Source: a bacterium (lineage in GTDB: Bacteria; Vulcanimicrobiota; Vulcanimicrobiia; Vulcanimicrobiales; SCRA01). Taken from it: 55,334 nucleotides of DNA. The notes below the pieces were generated by a model. It did no database searches. It saw nothing but the letters and a program-made list of their open reading frames with translations, and was not told the origin of the DNA. The stretch lies in contig SCRA01000024.1 of assembly GCA_004297985.1 (NCBI GenBank), positions 1 through 55,334 of the forward strand. The letters are read 5' to 3'. The position numbers were made by a program, and so were the translations under genes. Below, piece after piece: positions 1-44,828 of this stretch (positions are counted from its first letter, which is position 1; each line of letters begins with the position of its first letter).

Positions 1-45
1 CCCCACTCACTGAGGTTCGTGGGGGACCCCAGTCCTTGAGAGAGC

Positions 46-67
46 GCAATCGCGCAAGCGCGATTGC
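46..67 (-). terminator. Hairpin downstream of pstB
   Basis: A perfect 9-bp inverted repeat (GCAATCGCG, loop CAAG, CGCGATTGC) lies 15 bp beyond the pstB stop. There is no T-run on the minus strand after it. It may therefore be an mRNA 3'-stabilising or Rho-assisted hairpin rather than a classical intrinsic terminator. A phoU gene often follows pstB and could lie beyond the window edge. Confidence 0.45.
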
Positions 68-81
68 TTGGCCAGGACCGC

Positions 82-918
82 CTAGCCGAACCGCCCCGTG
101 ATGTAGTCTTCCGTGCGGCGGTCCTTCGGGCGCGTGAAGAGCTCGGAGGTTGGTCCGAACTCGACGAGCTCGCCCACGGCCTCCTCGCCGGCGAGCATGA
201 AGGCCGTATCCTGCGAGACGCGTGCCGCCTGTTGCATGTTGTGGGTCACGACGATGATCGTGAAGCGCTCGGCGAGGGTCGACATGAGATCCTCGATCTT
301 CGCCGTGGAGATCGGGTCCAGCGCCGACGCCGGCTCGTCCATCAGCAGTACCTCAGGCTCCGTAGCCAGCGCCCGGGCGATGCAGAGGCGCTGCTGTTGC
401 CCGCCCGAAAGCGAGAGCCCCGAGCGATCCAGCTTGTCCTTCACTTCGTCCCAAATCGCGGCCAAGCGCAACGTTCGCTCCGCCACCTCTAGCCTCTCGT
501 TGCGCGAGCGGCACTCGCCGACCAATCTCAGCCCCGCCACGACGTTCTCCAGAATCGACATCGTCGGAAAGGGGTTGGGCCGCTGAAATACCATACCGAT
601 CCGCCGGCGCACCGCCACGGGATCGACTCCGGGGGCGTAGATATCGTTCCCTTCGAGCTCGACGACGCCCTCGACCGTGGCGCCTCGCGTAACTTCGTGA
701 ATCCGGTTGAGACAGCGCAGGAGCGTGGTCTTACCGCAACCGGACGGACCGATGAGCGCGGTCACCGTGCGCGGCTTGAAGTCGATCGAGACGTTGCGGA
801 TCGCCAAGCGCTTGCCATAGAACGCGCTCAGCGAGCGGACCGAGAGCTGCACCTTTGGCACATGCGCGCCACCCAGCTCTTCGGGTAACACGGCGGGGGG
901 AATGTCGATCGATGTCAT
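82..918 (-). CDS. pstB: Phosphate ABC transporter ATP-binding protein PstB
   Basis: This is the ATPase that energises high-affinity phosphate import through PstC/PstA at the inner face of the membrane. In the 278-residue protein one sees Walker [10 protein letters not shown] (57-65), a Q-loop in VFQRPNPFP (about 110-118), the ABC signature LSGGQQQR (170-177), Walker B LLMDEP (191-196) and the switch His in VTHN (226). The length is typical for PstB. The start was placed at the ATG 16 bp after the pstA stop; the reading frame stays open further upstream, but that stretch lies in pstA and looks unlike PstB. It is the last visible gene of a pstS-C-A-B operon. Confidence 0.95.
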
Positions 919-934
919 CACTAATTGCCCACGG

Positions 935-1795
935 TCAACGGCTCGTTCGGCTTCGCAGCGCCGCACGTGCCAGGATGTTGAGGACCAGCACGACTACAAT
1001 GAGGATGAGCGCGCCGCCCCACGCCTGCTGGTGCCATTGCGGATACGGCGAGATGGCATAGTTGAAGATCTGCAGCGGGAGCTGAGCCATCGGGTTGCCG
1101 GGATTCAACTCCCAGAATTGGCTGCCGAACGCCGTGAAGAGCAGCGGCGCCGTCTCACCCGTCACGCGTGCGATCGCCAGCAGCAGACCCGTCGTGATCG
1201 CCGCACGAGCCGCAGGAATCACGACACGCACGGTGGTGGCGTAGATCGGCAGCCCCAGGGCGAGCGCGCCTTCGCGGATCGTGATGGGGACGCTCCGAAT
1301 CGCCTCCTCGGTCGTGCGGATGATGACGGGAAGCATCAGCACCGCGAAGGCGAAGGAGCCGGAGAGTGCCGAGAAATGCTTGAACGGCGCTACCAGCACG
1401 GCGTAGGCGAAGAGACCGATGGCGATGCTCGGTACCCCTGCCAACACATCCGACAGGAAGCGAATCGAGGAGGCCACCGTGCCGCGTCCGTACATCGCGA
1501 GATAGACGCCCGTCAACACGCCGATCGGCGTGGCCATCACCGTCGCAATGCCGACGGTGATCCCGGTGCCGAGGATGGCATTCGCCACGCCGCCGCCGGA
1601 GATGCCGATGGGATGCGGAACCTGGGTAAGGAATGGCAAGTTGACGGACGTGATGCCTTCGCGCACCACATAGCCGAGAATCAGCAGCAGCGCCGCAGCG
1701 GCGCCTCCAGCGCAGAGCGCCGTGAGAAAGACGCTGACCGCGCTGCGCACATGGCGTACTTTCAACGTGCGGCGCGCGAAGGCGGAGACGGCCAT
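935..1795 (-). CDS. pstA: Phosphate ABC transporter permease PstA
   Basis: One of the two membrane subunits of the Pst phosphate importer. The 286-residue product has an N-terminal membrane segment (about 20-42), several further hydrophobic helices, and an EAA-type cytoplasmic loop (about 174-193, [10 protein letters not shown]) that docks onto PstB. The ATG at 1795 overlaps the pstC stop by one base (TGATG), which implies translational coupling and decides the start over a longer upstream frame that is only pstC read out of frame. PstA and PstC are homologous; the shorter product following pstC is PstA by gene order and sequence. Confidence 0.94.
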
Positions 1796-2772
1796 CAGCG
1801 TTCCTCGACGTTGCGTAGGACGGTGTGCATCAAGATACGCGCCGCCGCGTTCACGACGATGCTGACCACGAAGAGGAGCAAGCCCAGGCCGATGAGCGTG
1901 CTGATATAGATCTGCGTCGTCGCCTCCGTGAACTCGTTGGCGATCACGCTGGCGAGCGTGTACCCGGGAGCAAACAGCGAGGCCGAGATCGCGGGGCGGT
2001 TGCCGATCACCATCGTCGTGGCGATCGTCTCGCCGAGCGCGCGCCCTACGGCCAGCACGCAAGCGCCGAAGATGCCGGGACGCGCCGCCGGCAGCACCAC
2101 CCTCCGCACCGTCTCCCAACGCGTCGCGCCCAGCGCGAGCATCGCCTCGCGTTGGTCGACGGCCACCGACTCGATGAAGTCGCGCGAGATCGCCGCCACC
2201 GTGGGAACGATCATCAGCGCGAGTATGAGACTGGCGGTGAGCATCCCCACGCCGTAGATCGGCCCGCTAAAGAGCGGAAGCCAACCGAGCTTGGACTGAA
2301 TCGCGGGGCCGATCACCGTACGCATCAGCGGCGCGAGCACGAAGAGGCCCCAGAGGCCATAGACGACGCTCGGCACCGCGGCTAGCAGTTCGATCAGGAA
2401 GGCTAAGGGGCGCGCGATCAGCGGCGGGGCAAACTCCGCCAGGTAGGCGGCCGCCGCTATGCCAACCACCGATGCGATCACGATCGCGATCGCCGAGCTC
2501 ACCACGGTGCCGAAAATGAATGGCAGGGCGCCGAAACGCCCCGCCACGGGATCCCACGACGAGTCCACCAAGAAGTGGAGCCCGAACGATTTGATTGCCA
2601 GCCACGAGCCGGCGAACAGCACGACGAAGAGGCCGAGGATCAGCGCGAGGTAGATCCACGTCGAGAGATTGAGCGCCCAGGAGAACAGACGATCACCGGC
2701 CCGATATCGCGGCCGGAATACGTCGAGCGACTGCGGGGCTACGCGTTCGCTACCGACAACCGTTTCCCCCAC
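1795..2772 (-). CDS. pstC: Phosphate ABC transporter permease PstC
   Basis: The second permease subunit of the Pst importer. The product of about 325 residues has an N-terminal transmembrane helix (WIYLALILGLFVVLFAG), further helices and an EAA loop containing REAMLALGATRWETV. I chose the GTG at 2772 because GGGGGA lies 11 bases upstream. The frame is also open up to a GTG that overlaps the pstS stop at 2871 (TAGTG), but the intervening 33 residues are basic, unlike PstC, and cover an apparent hairpin. If that upstream GTG is used, pstS and pstC would be translationally coupled. The true start is thus uncertain; the identity is not. Confidence 0.92.
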   Translation of the reverse strand: MGETVVGSERVAPQSLDVFRPRYRAGDRLFSWALNLSTWIYLALILGLFVVLFAGSWLAIKSFGLHFLVDSSWDPVAGRFGALPFIFGTVVSSAIAIVIASVVGIAAAAYLAEFAPPLIARPLAFLIELLAAVPSVVYGLWGLFVLAPLMRTVIGPAIQSKLGWLPLFSGPIYGVGMLTASLILALMIVPTVAAISRDFIESVAVDQREAMLALGATRWETVRRVVLPAARPGIFGACVLAVGRALGETIATTMVIGNRPAISASLFAPGYTLASVIANEFTEATTQIYISTLIGLGLLLFVVSIVVNAAARILMHTVLRNVEER

Positions 2773-2789
2773 GCCAGCAGTGATCCCCC

Positions 2790-2829
2790 AAAAAAGCCTA
2801 TCGCCGGGGGGGCGGCGTCTCGCAGACGC
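2790..2829 (-). terminator. Possible attenuator between pstS and pstC
   Basis: On the minus strand a GCGTCT/AGACGC hairpin with a 3-base loop (2815-2829) is followed by a G/C-rich segment that can pair again (GCC...GGC) and then six T residues (2795-2790). It sits in the 98-bp gap between the pstS stop and the chosen pstC start. Partial termination here would give more binding protein than permease, a common arrangement in ABC operons. The second stem is imperfect, so this is a moderate call. Confidence 0.4.
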
Positions 2830-2870
2830 GCCCTCCCAACGCCGATGCCATCGAAGTGGCGATCGCCCCA

Positions 2871-3932
2871 CTAGAACTGCATTTGGCCGAGGACCCGCTT
2901 CGCCTCCTGCTGTACGTTAGCAGGCAGCGGGACGTAGTCGAGCGAGGCGGCAATACTCTGGCCCTTGGTGGCGGTCCACTCAAGCACGTCCTTGATGAGC
3001 TTGGCACGCGCGGCATCGGACGGCTTGGCGAAGACCATCACCCACGAGTAGCCCGCGATAGGATAGGACCCGGCACCGGGGCGATTCACGATCGAGAAGT
3101 CGGACGGGTTGACGCCCGGCTTGGTCGCCGCGGCGGCGCGCACGCTCTCGACCGTGGGAGAGATGAACTTGCGCGCTGCGTTCTCGAGCTGCGCATACAT
3201 CATGTTGTTCTGGAGCGCGTAAGCCAGCTCGACGTAGCCGATGGAGCCGGGGGTCTCGCGCACTTGGCCGGAGACACCCTCGTTGCCCTTGCCGCCGACG
3301 CTGTTCTGCGCAGGCCACTGCACGCTCTTACCCACGCCCACTTTGGACTTCCACTCAGGGGAGACGCTCGAGAGATAGTCGGTGAAGATGTACGAGGTAC
3401 CCGAGCCGTCGGAGCGATGCACCACGATGATCTGGGCATCGGGCAGCTTCAACGACGGGTTGAGCTTGGCTATTGCGCCGTCGTTCCACTTGACGATCTT
3501 GCCGAGGTAGATGGCAACGACAACCGGACCGCTGAGACGGAGTCCCCTTCCGATGCCGGGCACGTTGTACGTGACCGCCACACCGCCCAACGCGATGGGG
3601 ATCTGCAGAACCTTCCCGCCGGCCTGCTCGGCGCGCTTATACTCCTCGGTGTTGAGAGGAACGTCGCTGGCGCCGAAGTCCACGGTCTTCGTCGTGAACT
3701 GCTGGATACCGCCGCCGCTGCCGATCGATTGGTAGTTGACCGTTACGTCGGAGTGCTGCTGGCTGTACTCGTAGAAGGCCTTGGAGAAGAGCGGATAGTC
3801 GAACGAGGAGCCGGCGCCCGTCAACTGGGTCGAGGCGAACGCTGGGACAACCGTGCCGGCACCGAGCGCCACCGCCAAGAGCGCCGCCGCAGCCGAAAGC
3901 GCCTTTCTCCGAGTGAAAAAGTCGGGATGCAT
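2871..3932 (-). CDS. pstS: Phosphate ABC transporter substrate-binding protein PstS
   Basis: An exported phosphate-binding protein delivering Pi to PstCA. The 353-residue product starts with a basic n-region (FFTRRKAL) and a hydrophobic signal ending near AFAS. Typical PstS phosphate-binding blocks follow: GAGSSFDYPLF near the mature N-terminus, GSGGGIQQF, and RSDGSGTSYIFTDYL. The ATG at 3932 was preferred to an upstream one because GGAGGT lies 12 bases before it and the signal peptide then has normal length. It is first in the pst operon. The about 100 bp upstream (3933-4033) should hold the promoter, but I could not recognise a convincing Pho box. Confidence 0.95.
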   Translation of the reverse strand: MHPDFFTRRKALSAAAALLAVALGAGTVVPAFASTQLTGAGSSFDYPLFSKAFYEYSQQHSDVTVNYQSIGSGGGIQQFTTKTVDFGASDVPLNTEEYKRAEQAGGKVLQIPIALGGVAVTYNVPGIGRGLRLSGPVVVAIYLGKIVKWNDGAIAKLNPSLKLPDAQIIVVHRSDGSGTSYIFTDYLSSVSPEWKSKVGVGKSVQWPAQNSVGGKGNEGVSGQVRETPGSIGYVELAYALQNNMMYAQLENAARKFISPTVESVRAAAATKPGVNPSDFSIVNRPGAGSYPIAGYSWVMVFAKPSDAARAKLIKDVLEWTATKGQSIAASLDYVPLPANVQQEAKRVLGQMQF

Positions 3933-4033
3933 GTGCGGAATGATACCTCCGGATTCGTGCGTGGGGCTCATCACCCGGTCCGTCCCCCCTCGACGAGTCT
4001 AGCGAACCTTCCTCAAGACCAGATTAACAAATG

Positions 4034-4065
4034 AACGAGGGCGCCGTGTTTCTGGCGCCCTCGTT
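4034..4065 (-). terminator. Rho-independent terminator of tRNA-Leu
   Basis: A perfect 12-bp stem AACGAGGGCGCC/GGCGCCCTCGTT with an 8-base loop begins 16 bases after the encoded CCA end of the tRNA. On the minus strand it is followed by a T-rich stretch (CATTTGTTAATC). It separates the tRNA transcript from the downstream pst operon. Confidence 0.8.
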
Positions 4066-4080
4066 GGCCTTCGTTAAAAT

Positions 4081-4167
4081 TGGTGCGGAAGACTGGACTC
4101 GAACCAGCACGATATTGCTACCGCCAGCCCCTCAAGCTGGTGCGTCTACCAATTCCGCCACTTCCGC
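4081..4167 (-). tRNA. tRNA-Leu (anticodon GAG)
   Basis: On the minus strand a 7-bp acceptor stem GCGGAAG/CTTCCGC (4167-4161 with 4091-4085), discriminator A and an encoded CCA (4083-4081) enclose a class II tRNA with a long variable arm. The D-arm region reads TGGTAGACGC. The anticodon stem is CCAGC/GCTGG with loop TTGAGGG, giving anticodon GAG, which reads CUC and CUU leucine codons. The T arm contains GGTTCGAGTCC. A long variable arm plus discriminator A is the leucine signature. Confidence 0.96.
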
Positions 4168-4212
4168 AGGCGTCGAGCCCCGCAACCTTGCTAGAAGGCC
4201 GGGACCCAAAGG

Positions 4213-4241
4213 AGTGTAGACTATGGCGCTTCCCTCGTCAA
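4213..4241 (-). promoter_or_regulatory. Sigma70-type promoter for tRNA-Leu
   Basis: Minus-strand -35 TTGACG (4241-4236), a 17-bp spacer and -10 TACACT (4218-4213). The -10 element ends 46 bases before the mature tRNA 5' end, which leaves a short leader for RNase P to remove. Confidence 0.75.
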
Positions 4242-4266
4242 TACCCTCCAGACCAATCCCTTTCCC

Positions 4267-5199
4267 CTACCGCATGTTGGGGTCGAGCGCATCGCGCAGG
4301 CCGTCGCCCATGTAGTTGATGGAGAGGACGGTGACCAGAATGGCCAGACCGGGAAAGATTGCTGCCCACGGCGCGATCGCCATGTTGTACTCGGCGTTGG
4401 CCAGCATGTTTCCCCAGGACGCCGTGGGCGGCTGAATGCCGAATCCCAGGAACGAGAGAGCGGATTCCAAGATGATGACGTTGGCTACGTCGAGTGTCGC
4501 TTGCACGATGATCGGCGCCACCGCGTTGGGGAGCAGGTGGCGGAACATGATGCGGCCGTCGGAGCTTCCGATGGCGCGGGCCGCTTCGGCGAACTCCTTC
4601 TCGCGCAACGAGAGATAGGAGGCTCGGACTAGGCGCGTCACCGGCATCCAGCCTAATCCGCCGATGATGATCACGATGACGCCGAACGACAGCGCCGCCT
4701 TGTTCGAGGAAGCGGCGACAATAGCCGTCAGCACCAAGAGCAACGGCAGCAGCGGGATCGAGAGAAAGATATCCGTGGCGCGCATGATGACGTAGTCGAT
4801 CCACTTGCCGTAATAGCCAGCCAGCGCACCGAGGAAGGTTCCCACAACCACCTCGATCAGCACGGCGAAGATGCCCACGGTCAGCGAGATGCGCGCGCCG
4901 AACATGAGGCGGGCAAGCAGATCGCGCCCGTTCTCGTCGGAGCCGAGCAGATGTCCGAAGGAACCCGGTGCCAGCGGGTACCCGTTCCAATGCGCCTGAT
5001 CGATGTAGTTAGGATTCCAGGGGCTCAAGAACGGCGCGAAGACCGCGACGAGGACGATGAAGATCAGGGCTGCGGTGCCGGCTATCGCGAGCTTGTGGCG
5101 CTTGAATCGCCTCCACGTGGCATGGCGCTCGCGTTCGAACTCGGCGTGGAGCTCGGCCTCCGGCTCAGGGGACTGTTGCAAGGGAACGGTGGTGGCCAT
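4267..5199 (-). CDS. Peptide-type ABC transporter permease (DppC/OppC family)
   Basis: An inner-membrane permease of the peptide/nickel ABC family. The 310-residue product shows the DppC layout: a charged cytoplasmic N-terminus, the first helix (LAIAGTAALIFIVLVAVFAP), the SPW(N/D)P motif just after it, the LLGSDENGRDLLARL block, four more helices, and an EAA loop in the FAEAARAIGSS region. It ends LDPNMR, close to the family's usual LDPR ending. A GGAG lies 10 bases before the ATG. It follows dppB after 22 bp. No solute-binding protein or ATPase gene is next to it, so partners must be encoded elsewhere. The substrate could be peptides, but this family also moves nickel, sugars or opines. Confidence 0.88.
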   Translation of the reverse strand: MATTVPLQQSPEPEAELHAEFERERHATWRRFKRHKLAIAGTAALIFIVLVAVFAPFLSPWNPNYIDQAHWNGYPLAPGSFGHLLGSDENGRDLLARLMFGARISLTVGIFAVLIEVVVGTFLGALAGYYGKWIDYVIMRATDIFLSIPLLPLLLVLTAIVAASSNKAALSFGVIVIIIGGLGWMPVTRLVRASYLSLREKEFAEAARAIGSSDGRIMFRHLLPNAVAPIIVQATLDVANVIILESALSFLGFGIQPPTASWGNMLANAEYNMAIAPWAAIFPGLAILVTVLSINYMGDGLRDALDPNMR

Positions 5200-5221
5200 C
5201 GTGGCGTCTCTCCTCGGAATC

Positions 5222-6181
5222 TCAGTCGTATTTGACGCGGGGGTCGAGCCACGCGTACGCCACGTCGGCGAGCAAGTTGAAGAGCACGACCAGGAACGAG
5301 ACGAGCATCAGGTAGCCCATCAGCAACGGAAAATCGAACTGGCCGAGCGCATTGAAGAAGAGCCGCCCCATCCCCGGCCACGCGAAGATCGTCTCGGTGA
5401 TGATCGCGCCGCCGACGATACCGGGAAGCGAGATGGCAATGACCGTCACCACCGGGATGACGGCATTCTTGAGCCCGTGTTTGAGGATGACCACTGCCGG
5501 TGCCAGCCCCTTCGCGGCCGCCGTGCGCATGTAGTCGGTCTTGATGACTTCGAGCATCGAGCTGCGCGTGAAGCGGCTCCACGTCGCGATGAAGGCGAGC
5601 GAGAGTACGAGCGTCGGCAGGATCAAATGCACGATACGGTCGTCAATGGGACAGGCGTCCGTATAGCACATCGACGCCGACGGGAGCTGGAGGCGATAAC
5701 CGAAGCCCGTGATGCCGTGAACCGAGAAGACGAGCTGCAGCATCAGGGCAAACCAGAAGACCGGCATCGACTGCCCGAAGAAGGCGAACGTCGTCACCAA
5801 GTAGTCCCAGATCGAGTAGGGCTTGATCGCCGCCAGCAGGCCGGCCGGAATGCCGATCAACAGCGACACGACGAACGCGCAGCCCATGAGGATCACCGTG
5901 GCCGGCATGCGATCGAGGATGGCACCCGCAACGGTCATCGAGTTCGAGGTGGAGTAGCCGAAGTCACCTCGCACCACGTGACTGAGCCATGCCAGATATT
6001 GGATGTAGAGCGGACGATCGAGACCGAAGTTGTGCTTCAGACGCGCGATGTCGGCTGCGGTGATGTGCGGATTCTGGAGGTAGGGCGTCAGCGGACCGCC
6101 GGGAGCCTCATGCAGGATGAGAAAAATGATGATGGAGATCAGCAACAAGAGCGGGATCGCTTGACCCGACCGTCGCAGCAC
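5222..6181 (-). CDS. Peptide-type ABC transporter permease (DppB/OppB family)
   Basis: The partner permease, 319 residues from the GTG at 6181. It has the N-terminal LRR-x-hydrophobic helix, then HEAPGGPL, a GLDRPLYIQYLAWLSHVVRGDFG block diagnostic of DppB, and helices with the EAA loop near YMRTAAAKGLAP. The start is not certain. A strong GGAGGG (6207-6202) is 8 bases before an in-frame CTG at 6193, whereas the GTG is 20 bases from it; a CTG start would add LFNY ahead of VLRR. It precedes dppC in the same direction and follows kce after a gap of more than 100 bp. Cluster position suggests peptide or amino-acid uptake feeding the lysine genes, which is inference. Confidence 0.88.
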   Translation of the reverse strand: MLRRSGQAIPLLLLISIIIFLILHEAPGGPLTPYLQNPHITAADIARLKHNFGLDRPLYIQYLAWLSHVVRGDFGYSTSNSMTVAGAILDRMPATVILMGCAFVVSLLIGIPAGLLAAIKPYSIWDYLVTTFAFFGQSMPVFWFALMLQLVFSVHGITGFGYRLQLPSASMCYTDACPIDDRIVHLILPTLVLSLAFIATWSRFTRSSMLEVIKTDYMRTAAAKGLAPAVVILKHGLKNAVIPVVTVIAISLPGIVGGAIITETIFAWPGMGRLFFNALGQFDFPLLMGYLMLVSFLVVLFNLLADVAYAWLDPRVKYD

Positions 6182-37611: not shown

Positions 37612-38507
37612 CAGCGCCCCAGCGCGCGCCGCAGCAGCAGCGCACCGCCAACCAGGGGCGCGGCGTAGAGCGCGTAACGCACCACCAGCGCGGCACAGAG
37701 CGAGTAGTACCAGAGACGGCCATGGTGCTTGATCCAGTAGCGGCGCCGCCCTGCGCGCTTATGGCGCTCCACCGCGCCGCGCGAGATCGCCGAGCCCATG
37801 CCCTCGTGAAGCGCGACGCTGGCGGGTACAAACCACGTCTCAATGCCGGCACGCGCCGCACGCTTGCAGAGATCCACCTCCTCCTGATACAGGAAGAAGC
37901 GCTCGTCGAAGCCGCCTAAGCGCCGGATGGTGCTGCTGCGCAGTGCCATCGCCGCGCCGATCACGATGTCCACGCGCCGCTCTTGGCCGTAACCCCAGGC
38001 GCGTAGCGCGTAGCCGTTGGCATAGCGGCGCAGTGGCGGAATCTCGCCCCACGCGCTCGAGCGCAAGAAGGCGCCTAGCCAGGTATCGAACTCGCCGCAC
38101 GACTCCTGGAGCGAGCCGTCCGGGTTGAGCACGCGCGAGCCGGCGATTCCCGCTCGAGGATGGCACGCGAAGAAGTCGAGCATGGCGCTGAGTGCCCCCG
38201 GCAGCACTTGACCATCGGGGTTGAGCAGGTAGTAGTAGGTCGCGTCGAGGGCGGCGAACGCACGGTTGCAGCCTGCGCCGAAGCCGAGGTTCGCACCGTT
38301 CTCGAGCACGAGGATTCGCTGGCCGTACCGCGCCCGCAGAATCTCCGGGGTACCGTCGTGCGAGCCGTTGTCGGAGACGATCAAGGCGAAGCGCTCCGGC
38401 TCGCGCCGCACCTCCGGAAGCGCGAAGAAGGAGTCGATCGCGGCCGCGGCACGCGTGGCGTCGTTCCACGTCACGACGACGACGCAGAGCTGGGGTGCTT
38501 CGCTCAC
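37611..38507 (-). CDS. Family 2 glycosyltransferase
   Basis: A 298-residue GT-A-fold transferase similar to rhamnosyl/N-acetylglucosaminyl-diphospho-decaprenol rhamnosyltransferases: VVVVTWN at the N-terminus, VSDNGSHDGT, NLGFGAGCNRAF, the donor-metal site LLNPDGQ, then GAAMALRSS and GGFDERFFLYQEEVDLCKRA. The C-terminus has a hydrophobic segment (SLCAALVVRYALYAAPLVGGALLL) suggesting membrane association. GTG 38507 overlaps the prfB stop (GTGA). It probably adds a sugar to a surface polymer; the dTDP-sugar genes rfbBA at 20 kb could supply the donor (inference). Confidence 0.86.
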   Translation of the reverse strand: MSEAPQLCVVVVTWNDATRAAAAIDSFFALPEVRREPERFALIVSDNGSHDGTPEILRARYGQRILVLENGANLGFGAGCNRAFAALDATYYYLLNPDGQVLPGALSAMLDFFACHPRAGIAGSRVLNPDGSLQESCGEFDTWLGAFLRSSAWGEIPPLRRYANGYALRAWGYGQERRVDIVIGAAMALRSSTIRRLGGFDERFFLYQEEVDLCKRAARAGIETWFVPASVALHEGMGSAISRGAVERHKRAGRRRYWIKHHGRLWYYSLCAALVVRYALYAAPLVGGALLLRRALGR

Positions 38508-39620
38508 GACACCGCGCTGCCCGCGAAGCGCTCGCGCTGCTGGAGGTAGGGCCAGATGAAGAGATCGAGCTCGCCGTCGAGAACCGACGTGACGCTCCCC
38601 GTCTCGACGCCGGTACGATGATCCTTCACCAGTTGGTACGGATTGAGAACGTAGGAGCGAATCTGACTTCCCCACTCGGTGGAGAGCTTCTCGCCGCGCA
38701 GCTCGGCCAGCTTGCGGTCGCGCTCCTCCAACTCGCGCAGCACGAGCTTGGCGCGCAGGATCGACATCGCCACGTCGCGGTTCTGCATCTGCGAGCGCTC
38801 CTGCTGCGAGGAGACGATGATCCCCGTCGCGAGGTGGATGATGCGGATCGCCGACTCGGTCTTGTTCACGTACTGTCCGCCGGCGCCCCCGCTCTTGAAA
38901 GTCTCGATGCGGATCTCGTCGGGCTTGATCTCGATCTGCCCCTCGCCGGCTTCGAGCTCGGGCACTACGCCCACGCTGGCGAAGGCCGTGTGGCGCCGGT
39001 GCGCGGCGTCGAACGGTGAGATCCGCACCAGACGGTGGACGCCGCGCTCGCTCTCGAGCATTCCGTATGCGTTGCGGCCGCGCACGAAGAACGTGGCGCT
39101 CTTGATGCCGGCCTCATCGCCCGGCGTCTCGTCGCTGAAGTGAACCTCGAAGCCGTGGTGCTCCGCCCAGCGCACGTACATGCGCAGGAGCATCTGCGCC
39201 CAGTCCGCAGCGTCTGTTCCGCCGGCACCGGAGTTGATCGAGACGATCGCACCGTGGTGGTCGAACTCGCGGTCGAACGTAGCGGCCATCTCCAGGCGCT
39301 CGAGCTCCTGGGCCGCTGCGGCCACCTCGCTGCGTGCCTCCTCGTCGGCCCCTGCCTCTTCGCCCATGAGGTCGAGCAGCTCCCAGGCTTCGTCGAGCGT
39401 ACGCCCGACGTGATCGAGCGGCTCCATATCGGCGCGCAGATCGGCGACTTGCTTCATGGCGGCCTGGGCGGCCCCGGCGTTCTCCCAAAAATCGCTCGCC
39501 TCGGCGGATCGCTCGAGCTCCCTCAGGCGATCGCGATGCTTGGCGTAGTCAAAGACGCACCCGCAGCCGCTCGAGCTGCGCGCGTAGACGGGTGATCTCG
39601 GATCGGGTAGCCTCGCTCAT
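38504..39620 (-). CDS. prfB: Peptide chain release factor 2 (programmed +1 frameshift)
   Basis: RF2 terminates at UGA and UAA. The ATG at 39620 opens a 23-codon frame ending in CTT TGA (stop 39551-39549). A +1 shift at CTTTGAC continues with Asp-Tyr-Ala-Lys into the main frame down to 38504, for 371 residues in total. The main frame holds the coiled stalk, the RF2 tripeptide SPF (ISPFDAAHRRHTAF), and GGQ in SGGAGGQYVNKTESA. The frameshift autoregulates RF2 level. It overlaps the glycosyltransferase gene by four bases. Confidence 0.95.
39548..39554 (-). promoter_or_regulatory. prfB frameshift site CTTTGAC
   Basis: The slippery CTT followed by the in-frame TGA and C is the classical RF2 autoregulatory site. 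A weak Shine-Dalgarno-like CGGGTG lies three bases upstream of CTT, the position of AGGGGG in E. coli. Confidence 0.9.
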
Positions 39621-39744: not shown

Positions 39745-40611
39745 ATGCCGTTACCGATTATCAGCCGCCGCCGGCTCCTGCACGGCTCGAGTGCTATGCT
39801 CGTTGGAAGCATGCTCCCCGCTGCCGTCCGCGCAGCCGGTACGGCGATCCGCGTGGGGATGATCCCCGACGCCGGGGCCACGCAGATCTCCGTCGACGAG
39901 AAGCGCCCGTTGCAGGAGTATCTTGCCTCCAAGATCGGGCACGACGTCGACCTGGTGATCCCTACGAACTACAACGCCACCGTAGAGGCGCTCGGCAACG
40001 GCTCGCTGGACTTCGCCTATCTCGGCGGTCTGACGTACGTTCAGGCGCACGCGCGCTACGGCGTGATTCCGCTCGTCCAACGCGCCGGCGACCAGCGCTT
40101 CCACTCGCTCTTCATCACCCAGGGCGACTCGGCGATCCACGCCTTGACGGATCTGCGCGGCAAGAGCTTCGCCTTCGGTGACACCAACTCCACCAGCGGC
40201 CACTTGATGCCGTACTACTACATGCAAGAGAGCGGCATCGATCCCGAGCGGGACCTGAAGTATCGGTTCACGGGCAACCACCCGGCCACGGCCAAGGCCG
40301 TGGGGGCCGGTATCGTCGACGCCGGCGCCATCGACGAGAGCGTCTTCCATGCGATGGTCGACGCCAAGCAGATCGACGGAAGCAAAGTACGGGTCTTCTA
40401 CACGACGCCACCGTTCGTCGACTACGTTTGGGTGGCGCGCAAGGAACTCGACACCAAGCAGCGCCAGTCGCTGGCCCAGGCTTTCCTGGCGCTCAAAGAT
40501 CCACGCGATAAGACCGTACTCGACATCCTGCGCGGGAAGGAGTTCCTGCGCGCCGACGACGCCGAGTACGACACGCTGCGCGGTGTGGCGCGCAAGCTGG
40601 GCATGTTGTAG
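39745..40611 (+). CDS. PhnD-like ABC transporter substrate-binding protein (possible selenium oxyanion)
   Basis: An exported solute-binding protein of 288 residues. It has a twin-arginine-type signal (ISRRRLLHG... to AVRAAG) followed by the PhnD-family core: IRVGMIPDAGATQ, a Y-N-A-T-V-E-A-L segment, DFAYLGGLTYVQA, GDSAIHALTDLRGKSFAFGDTNSTSGHLMPYYYM and the GAGIVDAGAIDESVF hinge region. PhnD relatives bind phosphonate, phosphite, phosphate or other oxyanions. Here the gene leads an operon ending in selD, so selenate or selenite is a reasonable substrate; I recall a family of putative selenate-binding PhnD homologues with this context. GGAAGG is nine bases before the ATG. Confidence 0.85.
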   Translation: MPLPIISRRRLLHGSSAMLVGSMLPAAVRAAGTAIRVGMIPDAGATQISVDEKRPLQEYLASKIGHDVDLVIPTNYNATVEALGNGSLDFAYLGGLTYVQAHARYGVIPLVQRAGDQRFHSLFITQGDSAIHALTDLRGKSFAFGDTNSTSGHLMPYYYMQESGIDPERDLKYRFTGNHPATAKAVGAGIVDAGAIDESVFHAMVDAKQIDGSKVRVFYTTPPFVDYVWVARKELDTKQRQSLAQAFLALKDPRDKTVLDILRGKEFLRADDAEYDTLRGVARKLGML

Positions 40612-40615
40612 CGCC

Positions 40616-41353
40616 ATGCTCTCCGTCGTCGATCTCACCGTCCGTTACACCAACCAGGCCGCGCCGGCGCTGCAGGGCATCTGCCTGAACGTGGCCGGCG
40701 GCGAACGCGTGGCGGTAGTGGGGCCCAGCGGCGGCGGCAAGACCACGCTCTTCCGTGCCGTCAACGGAAGCGTGCCCGTGCAAGGGGGCTACGTGGCGCT
40801 GGAGGGCGAGCGCGTGGGCGAGGCGCGCGGCGTGGAGCTCCGCGCGCTGCGCCGGCGCATCGCCGTCATCGCGCAGATGCACGACCTCGTCGATCGCCTC
40901 GACGTCTACCAGAACGTCATGGCCGGGGCGCTAGGGCGCTGGAGCTCTCTCCACGCCCTGCGCTTCCTGCTCCGGCCCAGCGGCGCGGAGCTGGTCGAAG
41001 CGCGGACGGCGCTCGAGCGCGTGGGCATTCCCGAGAAACTGCGCAGCCGCACCTCCGATCTCTCCGGCGGGCAGCGTCAGCGCGTGGCGATCGCGCGGGC
41101 CCTCGTGCAGCGGCCCGCCGTGCTGCTGGCCGACGAGCCCGTGGCCTCGCTCGATCCCGCGCGCAGCGAGCAGATCCTGGCACTGCTCTGCGACCTGGCG
41201 CGCGAGCGCGGCCTCGCCCTGATCTGCTCGCTCCACCAACCAGAGCTTGCCCTGCGCTACTTCGACCGCATCGTGGGCCTGCGCCACGGGCGCATGGTCT
41301 TCGACCGCCCGGTAGCCAAGATCGAGCCGGAACACCTCGTCTTCGCCTCGTAG
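40616..41353 (+). CDS. PhnC-like ABC transporter ATP-binding protein
   Basis: The ATPase subunit, 245 residues: Walker A GPSGGGKTT (about 36-44), Q-loop in AVIAQMHDLVDRLDVYQNVMAG as in PhnC, signature LSGGQRQR, Walker B LLADEPVASLDP, and switch His in CSLHQPELA. The ATG is four bases after the binding-protein stop, and the stop is one base before the permease start, so the set is a single operon. It is slightly shorter than phosphonate PhnC. Confidence 0.92.
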   Translation: MLSVVDLTVRYTNQAAPALQGICLNVAGGERVAVVGPSGGGKTTLFRAVNGSVPVQGGYVALEGERVGEARGVELRALRRRIAVIAQMHDLVDRLDVYQNVMAGALGRWSSLHALRFLLRPSGAELVEARTALERVGIPEKLRSRTSDLSGGQRQRVAIARALVQRPAVLLADEPVASLDPARSEQILALLCDLARERGLALICSLHQPELALRYFDRIVGLRHGRMVFDRPVAKIEPEHLVFAS

Positions 41354-41354
41354 C

Positions 41355-42749
41355 ATGCATGCGCTGATCATCGCCTGGCACACGCTGCTGGCCTTCTTCC
41401 CCCCGGATCTCTCGCCGTCGTACCTGCGCTACGTCTGGCTCCCCGTAACGCAGACCGTCGGCATGGCCTCCGCGGGGATGGTCGTGGCGCTCTGCTTGGG
41501 GATTCCACTCGCCATCTATGTCGGTACGCGCGCACCCGGGTGGCAAGGCATCGTAGGCATGCTCTCCGCGCTACGCGCCATCCCCGATCTCACGCTGGCG
41601 ATCCTGGCGGTCGTCGTCGTGGGTCTGGGGCCGGCCGCGGGCATGGCGGCGCTGGCAGTCTTCTACACGGCGATGGTGGGCAAGGTCTTCGCCGAGCTCT
41701 TTCTCGCCGCGCCGCAGGCCCCGCTCGAGTCGCTGCGCGCCACCGGCGCACCGCGCCTGGCCGTTGCGCTCTTCGGGCTGATCCCGCTCACGCTCGCCGA
41801 CCTGCTGACGTTCGGCTCTTACTCCTTCGAGTGCGCGATGCGCGCCTCGGTCATCGTGGGCGCCGTCGGCGGCGGCGGCATCGGCACAGAGCTGGTCGGC
41901 GCCGTCAATGGCCTGGACTACCCGCGCGCCACCACGCTTATCGTCATCCTGGCGTTGCTCGTGACCAGCGTCGACACGCTGGGCTGGTTCATGCGCAAGC
42001 ACCCGCGCATCGCACTCGTGCTCTTCCCCATGGGCGTGGCGACGATGCTGCTCAACCCGCCGCAGGTCTTCGTGCTTCGCCACGCCCTGGCGACCTTTGC
42101 CGGTATGTTCCCGCCGCTTCTGAGCACCAAGGCTCTCGCCGCGCTCCCTGCGCTGCTGTGGGAGACGCTGGAGATCGCCGTCGGCGGCACGGCACTTGCA
42201 TTGCTGCTAGCGATACCGCTGGCCTTGGGCGCGGCACGCAACGTCGTCCACACGGCGATCACAGCCGTCGTTCGACGCGTGCTCGACGTCTCGCGCGCCG
42301 TTCCCGAAATCGTCTGGGGGTTGATCTTGGTGGTCATGGCGGGTATCGGGCCGCTGGCGGGCGCGCTGGCGCTGGGTATCCACTCGGCGGGCGTGCTCGG
42401 CAAGCTCTTCGCCGAGGCCTTCGAAAATGTCGATACCGCGCCGGTACGAGCGCTCGAGGCTACCGGTGCCGGGCGCCTGCCGATCGTCGCCTTCGGCATC
42501 TTTCCGCTGGCGATCGGCCCCATCGCCGTGCATACGATGTTCCGCCTGGAGTGGAACGTGCGCGCGGCCACCGTGGTCGGCATGATCGGCGCGGGCGGGA
42601 TCGGCGAAGCACTCTATAACGCGCAGCAGCACATGCACTACCAGCAGATGATGGCCTACATCGCGGCCACCTGGCTGCTCGTGATCCTGGCCGACGTCGC
42701 GGGAGAGCGGGTACGCCGCCGCCTGGGCTGGAACTACGTAGCGACATGA
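41355..42749 (+). CDS. PhnE-like permease, two permease domains fused
   Basis: A 464-residue membrane protein made of two tandem PhnE-type permease domains (about 1-225 and 240-464). Each has its own EAA loop: ESLRATGAPRLAVALFGLIP in the first half and RALEATGAGRLPIVAFGIFP in the second, followed by GAVGGGGIGTEL and GMIGAGGIGEAL. Most PhnE genes encode one domain that dimerises; here both halves are one chain. It starts one base after phnC-like and its TGA overlaps the selD ATG (ATGA). Confidence 0.92.
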   Translation: MHALIIAWHTLLAFFPPDLSPSYLRYVWLPVTQTVGMASAGMVVALCLGIPLAIYVGTRAPGWQGIVGMLSALRAIPDLTLAILAVVVVGLGPAAGMAALAVFYTAMVGKVFAELFLAAPQAPLESLRATGAPRLAVALFGLIPLTLADLLTFGSYSFECAMRASVIVGAVGGGGIGTELVGAVNGLDYPRATTLIVILALLVTSVDTLGWFMRKHPRIALVLFPMGVATMLLNPPQVFVLRHALATFAGMFPPLLSTKALAALPALLWETLEIAVGGTALALLLAIPLALGAARNVVHTAITAVVRRVLDVSRAVPEIVWGLILVVMAGIGPLAGALALGIHSAGVLGKLFAEAFENVDTAPVRALEATGAGRLPIVAFGIFPLAIGPIAVHTMFRLEWNVRAATVVGMIGAGGIGEALYNAQQHMHYQQMMAYIAATWLLVILADVAGERVRRRLGWNYVAT

Positions 42750-43798
42750 CCATCGCGAAATCCATCCGTCTGACCGCCTACAGCTCCTGCGCGGGGTGAG
42801 CGAGCAAAGTCGGCTCCGCCGACCTCGCGCACGTGCTGCGCGACTTGCCGCCGATCACCGATCCCAACGTTCTGGTGGGGACTGCCACCTTCGACGACGC
42901 GGGCGTCTACCGCATCTCCGATGAGCTGGCGCTGGTGCAGACCGTCGACTTCTTCACGCCCATCGTGGACGATCCGTTCACGTTTGGACGCATCGCGGCG
43001 GCGAATGCGCTCTCCGACGTCTATGCCATGGGCGGACGCCCCGTCACCGCGCTCAACATCGCCGCCTTCCCCATGGGTACGCTCCCCGACGACGTGCTTG
43101 CCGCGATCCTGCGCGGCGGCGCCGACGCATGCGTGGAGGCTGGGGTCAGCATCGTCGGCGGCCACACCGTGAAAGACGACGAGCCGAAGTTCGGCATGGC
43201 CGTTACCGGCTTCGTCGACCCACGGCGCATCCTGCGCAACGACGCTGCGCGTCCCGGCGACCTGCTCTACCTCACCAAGCCCTTGGGAACGGGCATCTAC
43301 TCGACGGCACTCAAACACGACGCCATCGACGACGGTGCGATGGCCGAGGCGGTACGCTCGATGTCGGCGCTCAACGCACGCGCCTCCGAGGCGGCGTTGG
43401 AGGCGGCGGCACACGCTTGCACCGACATCACCGGATTCGGCTTCCTCGGCCACGCGCACGAGTTGGCCGCCGGCAGTAGCGTGGCGCTCGAGATCGAAGC
43501 CGGGATGCTCCCGCTGTTCTCGCGCACGCTTGCGCTGATCGAGGCCGGCGAGGTGCCGGGAGGCACCAAGGACAACGCGCAGCAGCACGCCGCCTTCACG
43601 CGCTTCGACGATGCGGTAGACTCCGCGACGCGCTTGGCACTCTCCGACGCGCAGACGTCCGGGGGCTTGCTGATCGCGATTCCCAGCAACCGCGCGGCCG
43701 TCCTGACCGAGGCTCTCGAGCGGCGCGGCCAGCTCGTGTGCGCCGTCGGCCGCGTTGCCGAAGGGCACGGTGAGATCACCGTCCTGGCTCACCGCTAG
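42746..43798 (+). CDS. selD: Selenide, water dikinase SelD (selenoprotein)
   Basis: SelD makes selenophosphate from selenide and ATP for selenocysteine and selenouridine. The frame from ATG 42746 reads through an in-frame TGA at codon 18 (42797-42799). With U18 the N-terminus is SSCAGU-ASK, matching the family's Cys/Sec-x-x-Lys active site with the catalytic Lys at 21. After it come ITDPNVLVGTATFDDAGVY, VDFFTPIVDDPFTFGRIAAANALSDVYAMGG, GGHTVKDDEPKFGM and ITGFGFLGHAHEL, all SelD. A hairpin follows the UGA. Total length is 350 residues. Translation is coupled to the permease gene (ATGA). Confidence 0.94.
42797..42828 (+). promoter_or_regulatory. UGA selenocysteine codon and bacterial SECIS-like stem-loop
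   Basis: Directly after the TGA, GCGAG (42800-42804) pairs with CTCGC (42824-42828), with a CAAA bulge. GTCGGC (42809-42814) then pairs with GCCGAC (42818-42823) around a TCC tip. The upper helix begins nine bases after the UGA, near the about 11-base spacing of known bacterial SECIS elements that recruit SelB. Confidence 0.75.
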
Positions 43799-43799
43799 C

Positions 43800-44828
43800 G
43801 TGAAAGCCCTGGAAAACGAGATCGCGTGGTCGTGGTCGCGCGACAAGATCTACCGCCGCTGCAAGCGCGAGTACTACTGGGCGTACTACGGGAGCTGGGG
43901 CGGATGGGAAGACGGTGCGACACCCACGCAACGCAAGGCACGCTTCCTCAAGAAGCTCTCCGACGTCAACCGTCTGGTCGGCGATGCGATCCATACGCCC
44001 ATCGCCAAAGCGCTTCACCTCCGCAGCCCCGCCGAGCGCACGCCGCCGTTCCAGCAGATCACCGGCGAGGCGAACGAAGCGTTCGAGCACGTCGTACGCC
44101 TGAACGGCTGGCGGATCGGCGACGTCATCACCGATCCCAGCCGAGGCATGGGACAACTCGCGGAACGGTACTATCAGCTTCCCGATCTCGACGAACGCCT
44201 TGCCCTAGCCCGCGTGAAGCTCGGCGCCAACTTGGACGGACTCCGCCAGAGCCTCTACGCAACGATTCCTTTTCGCCACGATGCGCGCGACCTACTGTGG
44301 GTCGACCCGGTCGAGCATCCCGCGATCATGTCGCGCAACGAGGCGATGCAGGCCAAACGCCTCACGCTGGACGATGGCACGCTGCTGTACGGCTCGCCGG
44401 ATGTGGTGGTAAAGGGCACGGACGGCCTCGTGCACATCATCGATTGGAAGACGGGGCGGCTCTCCTCGCCCGACGACCTGCAGATCGGCGCCTATGCCTT
44501 CTTCATCCAGCGCAAACTCGACGTTCCACTCGATACGATGCGCGGGCACCTCGTGCATTTCTTGGCGCCCAGCGAGCATCAAGTCGTGCCGATCGACGGT
44601 CTGGTCGAGAAGGTTGCGCTCGTGCGCAGCATGGTCGGCGAATTTCTTGCCGACCTTCGAGCACGCCTGACCGATCCGCAGTTGAATCGCGCCGATGACA
44701 TCGAGCGCTTCCCCATGATCGAGCCAGGGCCGACGTGCATGCGCTGCAGCTATCGAGAGTTGTGCGGGCGCGCGGCGCTTGGCCAACCGCCGGCCGAAGA
44801 CGACGAAGAGCGCGGCGAGACTGCGTAG
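43800..44828 (+). CDS. RecB/Cas4-like PD-(D/E)XK nuclease with Fe-S cysteines
   Basis: A 342-residue protein. The nuclease core is visible as GSPDVVVKG (the PD motif) and VHIIDWKTGR (D-x-K), followed by QIGAYAFFI. A Cys near the N-terminus (RRCKREYYW) and a C-terminal CMRCSYRELC make a four-cysteine set like the Fe-S cluster of Cas4, AddB and Dna2. It is probably a single-strand DNA exonuclease or recombination accessory. It starts (GTG) one base after the selD stop, so it is co-transcribed with the transporter and selD. No cas genes or CRISPR array are near. Its function in this operon is unclear. Confidence 0.8.
   Translation: MKALENEIAWSWSRDKIYRRCKREYYWAYYGSWGGWEDGATPTQRKARFLKKLSDVNRLVGDAIHTPIAKALHLRSPAERTPPFQQITGEANEAFEHVVRLNGWRIGDVITDPSRGMGQLAERYYQLPDLDERLALARVKLGANLDGLRQSLYATIPFRHDARDLLWVDPVEHPAIMSRNEAMQAKRLTLDDGTLLYGSPDVVVKGTDGLVHIIDWKTGRLSSPDDLQIGAYAFFIQRKLDVPLDTMRGHLVHFLAPSEHQVVPIDGLVEKVALVRSMVGEFLADLRARLTDPQLNRADDIERFPMIEPGPTCMRCSYRELCGRAALGQPPAEDDEERGETA

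Follow-up and report, generated by a model that had tools for sequence, protein, structure and literature searches.

According to reviews published up to 2026, no high-affinity transport system specific for selenium has yet been found in prokaryotes (PMC13188914; PMC9312934), and a dedicated bacterial selenium importer still awaits proof. In Methanococcus maripaludis five selenium-responsive putative transporters were deleted, none of them annotated as PhnD-type, and none was absolutely required for any tested selenium species (PMC11097638). Our literature search for links between selenium transporters and phosphonate, or between phosphite transporters and selenite, found no paper proposing such a link, and none naming the putative selenate-binding family TIGR04553.

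We analysed a stretch of 55,334 nucleotides (the window) on contig SCRA01000024.1 of a 3.19 Mb assembly, 96% complete, whose nearest named relatives are MAGs of the Eremiobacterota (WPS-2, Vulcanimicrobiota). A three-part transporter precedes selD there (Table 1), and several described systems resemble it. The TIGR04553 substrate-binding proteins (SBPs) of Sphaerotilus, encoded in the order mnmH-ATPase-permease-SBP-selD, share the PhnD fold, the three-part transporter and the adjoining selD, but they are 40-43% identical, the gene order differs and mnmH is a partner. The ptxABCD operons of the Ralstonia/Burkholderia type are alike in the SBP (54-67% identical), in a fused permease of ~460 aa and in the order SBP-ATPase-permease-enzyme; in the window, however, the partner is SelD and not PtxD, the genome has no ptxD, and a tree of the three transporter proteins gives a separate branch. 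Picocyanobacterial PhnD1 (7s6g, 5lq5) has the same fold (TM ~0.81) and shares the phosphite pocket (D42, Y76, F119, S149-T150-S151, H179, D226 and Y227 in window numbering), whereas overall identity is 30-34% and its N176 is D197 here. The senA-senB loci of two Acetobacteraceae, one also with selD, have an SBP 61-62% identical and a three-part transporter, but the adjacent pathway is that of selenoneine and in the window that of selenocysteine. We class the window system as a variant within the predicted family of selenate transporters; its novelty lies in a clade held in common with phosphite transporters, in the association with selenoneine genes and in the selenite prediction that follows. 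From its sequence we consider it reasonably probable that the transporter is a selenium-oxyanion importer, probably for selenite, within a selenium supply operon.

Table 1. Features of the transporter-selD locus, in coordinates of the window.
Feature	Position	Strand	Evidence or remark
Substrate-binding protein (SBP), PhnD/PtxB-type, RR-type signal sequence	39745..40611	+	TIGR04553, PF12974
PhnC-type ATPase	40616..41353	+	TIGR02315 236 bits, under cut-off 266
PhnE-type permease, two fused copies	41355..42749	+	TIGR01097 364.7 bits (cut-off 216.7), two stretches
selD, selenophosphate synthetase, selenoprotein form	42746..43798	+	TIGR00476 386.8 bits (cut-off 125), TGA read as Sec
In-frame TGA (Sec18), replaces catalytic Cys of SelD	42797..42799	+	sequence, alignment of relatives
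Candidate bacterial SECIS hairpin	42800..42829	+	GCGAG-caaa-GUCGGC-ucc-GCCGAC-CUCGC
PD-(D/E)XK nuclease-like gene, 1 bp past selD	43800..44828	+	PF12705 43.9 bits
prfB (RF2), divergent from selD operon	38504-39620	-	programmed +1 frameshift site CTTTGAC at 39548-39554

The SBP gene is separated from the ATPase gene by 4 bp and this from the permease gene by 1 bp, and the permease gene overlaps selD by 4 bp (-4) in an ATGA, as the preliminary description had given it; re-reading the coordinates confirmed this. All four species sampled from the genus (Eremiobacterota) retain gene order and ATGA overlap, the three other genomes being 75-88% identical to the window in the SBP and 78-90% in SelD, with the UGA in each. 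Judged from the sequences, this conservation is not chance, and the four genomes represent one evolutionary event, not four. In the order's other family (Eremiobacterota), transporter and selD lie apart, so that the adjacency in the window goes back to a single event; taken alone, adjacency to selD is weak evidence for a selenium role. The true start of prfB lies near 39620 and is connected via the frameshift site, which leaves ~124 bp upstream of the selD operon. This RF2 gene adjoins the UGA-Sec selD operon in all four genus members. The nuclease-like gene is also kept across the genus; it is possibly cotranscribed with selD and probably without connection to selenium. A search of viral contigs gave no match, and an Rfam scan of the window found a tRNA only.

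The selD product matches the SelD profile and reads through a single TGA at codon 18 (context SSCAGU-ASK), the position of the catalytic cysteine, and the genome carries the Sec machinery. An alignment of relatives shows the TGA throughout the genus and in most of the related genomes. The stem directly after the TGA is plausibly a bacterial SECIS. The first 40 nt fold with -17.2 kcal/mol, and the apical stem recurs across the genus and in several relatives further away, the outer stem being partly lost in one genus member. For 64 nt z is -2.05, with a minimum-energy fold that differs from the candidate hairpin, and the candidate is without an Rfam match.

In the host genome selA and selB lie in tandem on another contig (C72), with tRNA-Sec (71.7 bits) ~10 kb further on, while MnmH was searched for and is absent. 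Therefore, the selenium use found in this host is selenocysteine, SelD itself being one selenoprotein. selD is present in all 18 Eremiobacterota genomes checked. PtxD was found neither in the host genome (96% complete) nor in 17 other Eremiobacterota. The best match in the host (198 bits, 37%) is at the level of a generic D-2-hydroxyacid dehydrogenase/glyoxylate reductase, compared with 294-733 bits in genomes with related transporters and 393-566 for solved PtxD. Of the phosphonate enzymes the search covered PhnJ (C-P lyase), which is absent from the host and from the 16 Eremiobacterota genomes searched. Phosphate uptake is already served by a PstS gene in the same window (2889-3824).

Among the family profiles, TIGR04553 (putative selenate) fits the SBP best, with 234.6 bits and so below the curated cut-off of 250, which is reached in none of the 148 genomes of the phylum. 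PF12974 gives 236 bits, and TIGR03431 (PhnD) 159 bits against a cut-off of 261.1, so that the system does not qualify as a PhnCDE phosphonate transporter. Selenium genes, as expected of a TIGR04553 system, are found both adjacent (selD) and elsewhere in the genome (selA, selB, tRNA-Sec). Strong SBP relatives (205-235 bits) occur in 16 of the 148 genomes, all with selA. This co-occurrence (Fisher p = 0.028, kinship ignored) is weak evidence, because selA is common in the phylum (120/148) and the p value is confounded by kinship. Another member of the Eremiobacterota (L049, 5479-8605) has a distant PhnD-like protein (60 bits) near a Sec-type selD, without ATPase or permease matches beside it.

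The AlphaFold (AF2) model of the SBP (pLDDT 88.9) has its closest solved fold in Synechococcus PhnD1 with phosphate (7s6g, TM 0.81). Bisson et al. (PMC5700983) described Y46, S126, T127, S128, H158 and D205 as the phosphite contacts of Prochlorococcus PhnD1, with Y206 as cap and D13, F90 and N176 around the pocket. The aligned window residues are, in the same order, Y76, S149, T150, S151, H179 and D226, with Y227 as cap and D42, F119 and D197 around them; the phosphite-type pocket is therefore conserved except for the change of N176 to D197. Y76, F119, S149-S151, H179, D226 and Y227 do not vary among 42 relatives linked to selenium or to phosphite, and the pocket residues are the same in members of both kinds. 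When pocket residues were screened for a difference between ptxD-linked and selenium-linked members, the cleanest site was S199, with S in 7/7 selenium-linked rows and T in 11/12 ptxD-linked ones, a split that tracks the tree and is not decisive. Selenite (SeO3 2-) is a pyramidal three-oxygen anion whose lone pair takes the place of the P-H of phosphite, and selenate has a fourth oxygen, which would face the tyrosine cap. For PhnD1, one study concluded that the minimum requirement is three oxygens in trigonal arrangement (PMC10284923). Going by these residues, the pocket would favour pyramidal XO3 anions (selenite, sulfite, phosphite) over selenate, and given its three-oxygen shape and tyrosine cap selenite is the better guess.

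Import of selenate and not selenite is a sub-case of the selenium reading, with which its likelihood overlaps. The name of TIGR04553 speaks for it, as does the fact that selenate is a common soluble form of selenium, and phosphate does bind a PhnD1-type pocket weakly. Since the pocket holds three oxygens and the tyrosine cap (Y227) has been described as sterically hindering R groups of larger size (PMC5700983), we regard selenate as a rather unlikely substrate.

A scan of species genomes for related transporters yielded 59 loci. ptxD lies beside the transporter at eleven of these and on one Burkholderia plasmid (12 in total), and nine Sphaerotilaceae-type loci have mnmH, most of them also selD. 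One locus has selA and selD on the same contig (L114), and in Croceibacterium (L119, 5920-12182) selB and selA are convergent with the permease gene. In the two Acetobacteraceae (L089, 5392-9246; sen region of L135, 9038-11704) genes for SenA (510 and 519 bits, cut-off 420) and SenB (435 and 427, cut-off 300) come next after the transporter, and L089 has SelD there as well. PDB matches of the sen products are to the solved SenB and to OvsA/SenA/EgtB, and these transporters could be dedicated importers for selenoneine makers. An NADH-dehydrogenase-SelD fusion is encoded 2.0 kb upstream of a further transporter on the same strand (L096). This NDH-SelD fusion runs with two radical SAM genes and a family 2 glycosyltransferase (3-5817). 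In another of the Eremiobacterota (L042, 9603-12103) the SBP gene shares 4 bp with a gene for an assimilatory sulfite reductase (715 bits); enzymes of this kind can also reduce selenite, and this one is a possible partner for selenite reduction.

In total, 4 of ~22 clade loci outside the genus of the window and not beside ptxD have a selenium gene within ~6 kb. At least four such loci would be expected by chance with p 0.00006-0.004, where the assumed background of 1-3% of stretches is a rough guess. The clade genomes without ptxD outside Eremiobacterota all have selD, although this ptxD-negative set includes fragmented MAGs, in which absence is less certain (the contig of L104 stops at the permease). 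Because 10 of the 12 ptxD-positive genomes carry selD as well, its co-occurrence alone does not separate the two sets.

In the SBP tree the window falls inside a 39-row clade (100/97) that also contains all ptxD-adjacent loci, which are spread over more than one subclade and not separated from the selenium loci. Therefore a three-protein tree was built from the joined SBP, ATPase and permease (987 columns). Here the ptxD-linked loci and close kin form a single 16-row group (71/94), apart from the window, which belongs with the main Eremiobacterota transporters to a group of its own (87/73); the sen loci and the NDH-SelD locus make up a third (98/95). The branch setting the ptxD loci apart is not strongly supported.

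Given the SBP clade shared with 12 ptxD loci, a serious rival reading makes the transporter an importer of phosphite (or methylphosphonate), of the PtxABC type of Ralstonia, that stands before selD by chance, with another enzyme oxidising the phosphite. Operons with ptxD are among its closest relatives in other phyla (Burkholderia G4 plasmid, 54.5%; Acidobacteria, 57-67%), and all PhnD1 phosphite contacts are conserved. Against it stand the lack of ptxD in all 18 and of PhnJ in all 16 Eremiobacterota genomes searched, the separate grouping of ptxD-linked loci in the three-protein tree and the selenium-gene neighbours of relatives in unrelated hosts, and on balance we think it improbable. More doubtful still is the reading as a phosphate importer of secondary role and medium affinity, a function suggested for picocyanobacterial PhnD1. 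The closest solved structure does contain phosphate, and PhnD1 binds phosphite although its host is without ptxD, in a study that does not mention selenium (PMC10284923). However, PstS is already encoded in the window, and this explanation leaves the selD, sen, selBA and mnmH neighbours of the relatives unexplained. An importer of sulfite or another pyramidal sulfur oxyanion, with a secondary selenium link, could be read from the sulfite reductase overlap at L042, but such enzymes can also reduce selenite and other relatives point to selenium genes specifically; we take it to be the least credible reading.

Gene neighbourhood and phylogeny make selenium import appear about twice as likely as phosphite or phosphate import, or better. 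The preliminary description had proposed selenium oxyanion import and not phosphonate. The best profile, the Sec machinery, the absence of PtxD, PhnJ and MnmH and the relatives beside senA/senB/selD and NDH-SelD agree with this; the missed cut-off, the ptxD operons among the closest relatives outside the phylum, the selD adjacency restricted to the genus and a pocket less suited to selenate leave the picture less clear. Matches to phosphite clades, named in advance as an argument against it, did appear, while the ptx and phn genes looked for in the genome (ptxD, phnJ) did not. In the proposed operon, whose four genes would be cotranscribed, the SBP would catch a selenium oxyanion, most likely selenite, in the periplasm, and ATPase and fused permease would bring it into the cell. 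Enzymes encoded outside the operon would reduce it to selenide, which SelD, using its own Sec residue, would convert to selenophosphate for SelA and tRNA-Sec. A concrete clade of candidate selenium importers emerges, found in selenocysteine, selenouridine and selenoneine contexts, with selenite as predicted ligand in place of the selenate of the annotation. A caution also follows, since automatic annotation in this clade does not keep phosphite and selenium transporters apart.

Over 20 labelled rows, among which the four genus members are not independent, one change of neighbour between ptxD and selenium genes suffices. Since the outgroup rows are selenium-linked or from genomes with selA, the selenium state may be older than the ptxD state. 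Tentatively, PtxABC phosphite transporters of the Ralstonia type might have arisen from high-affinity selenite importers, or the reverse; the window operon would retain the selenium state, and the transporter's role would follow the partner gene (selD, senAB, selBA, ptxD) with the XO3 pocket unchanged. Although it adjoins selB-selA, the Croceibacterium transporter is nested in the ptxD group, where its branch is very long (1.2-1.34); it could represent a switch back to selenium.
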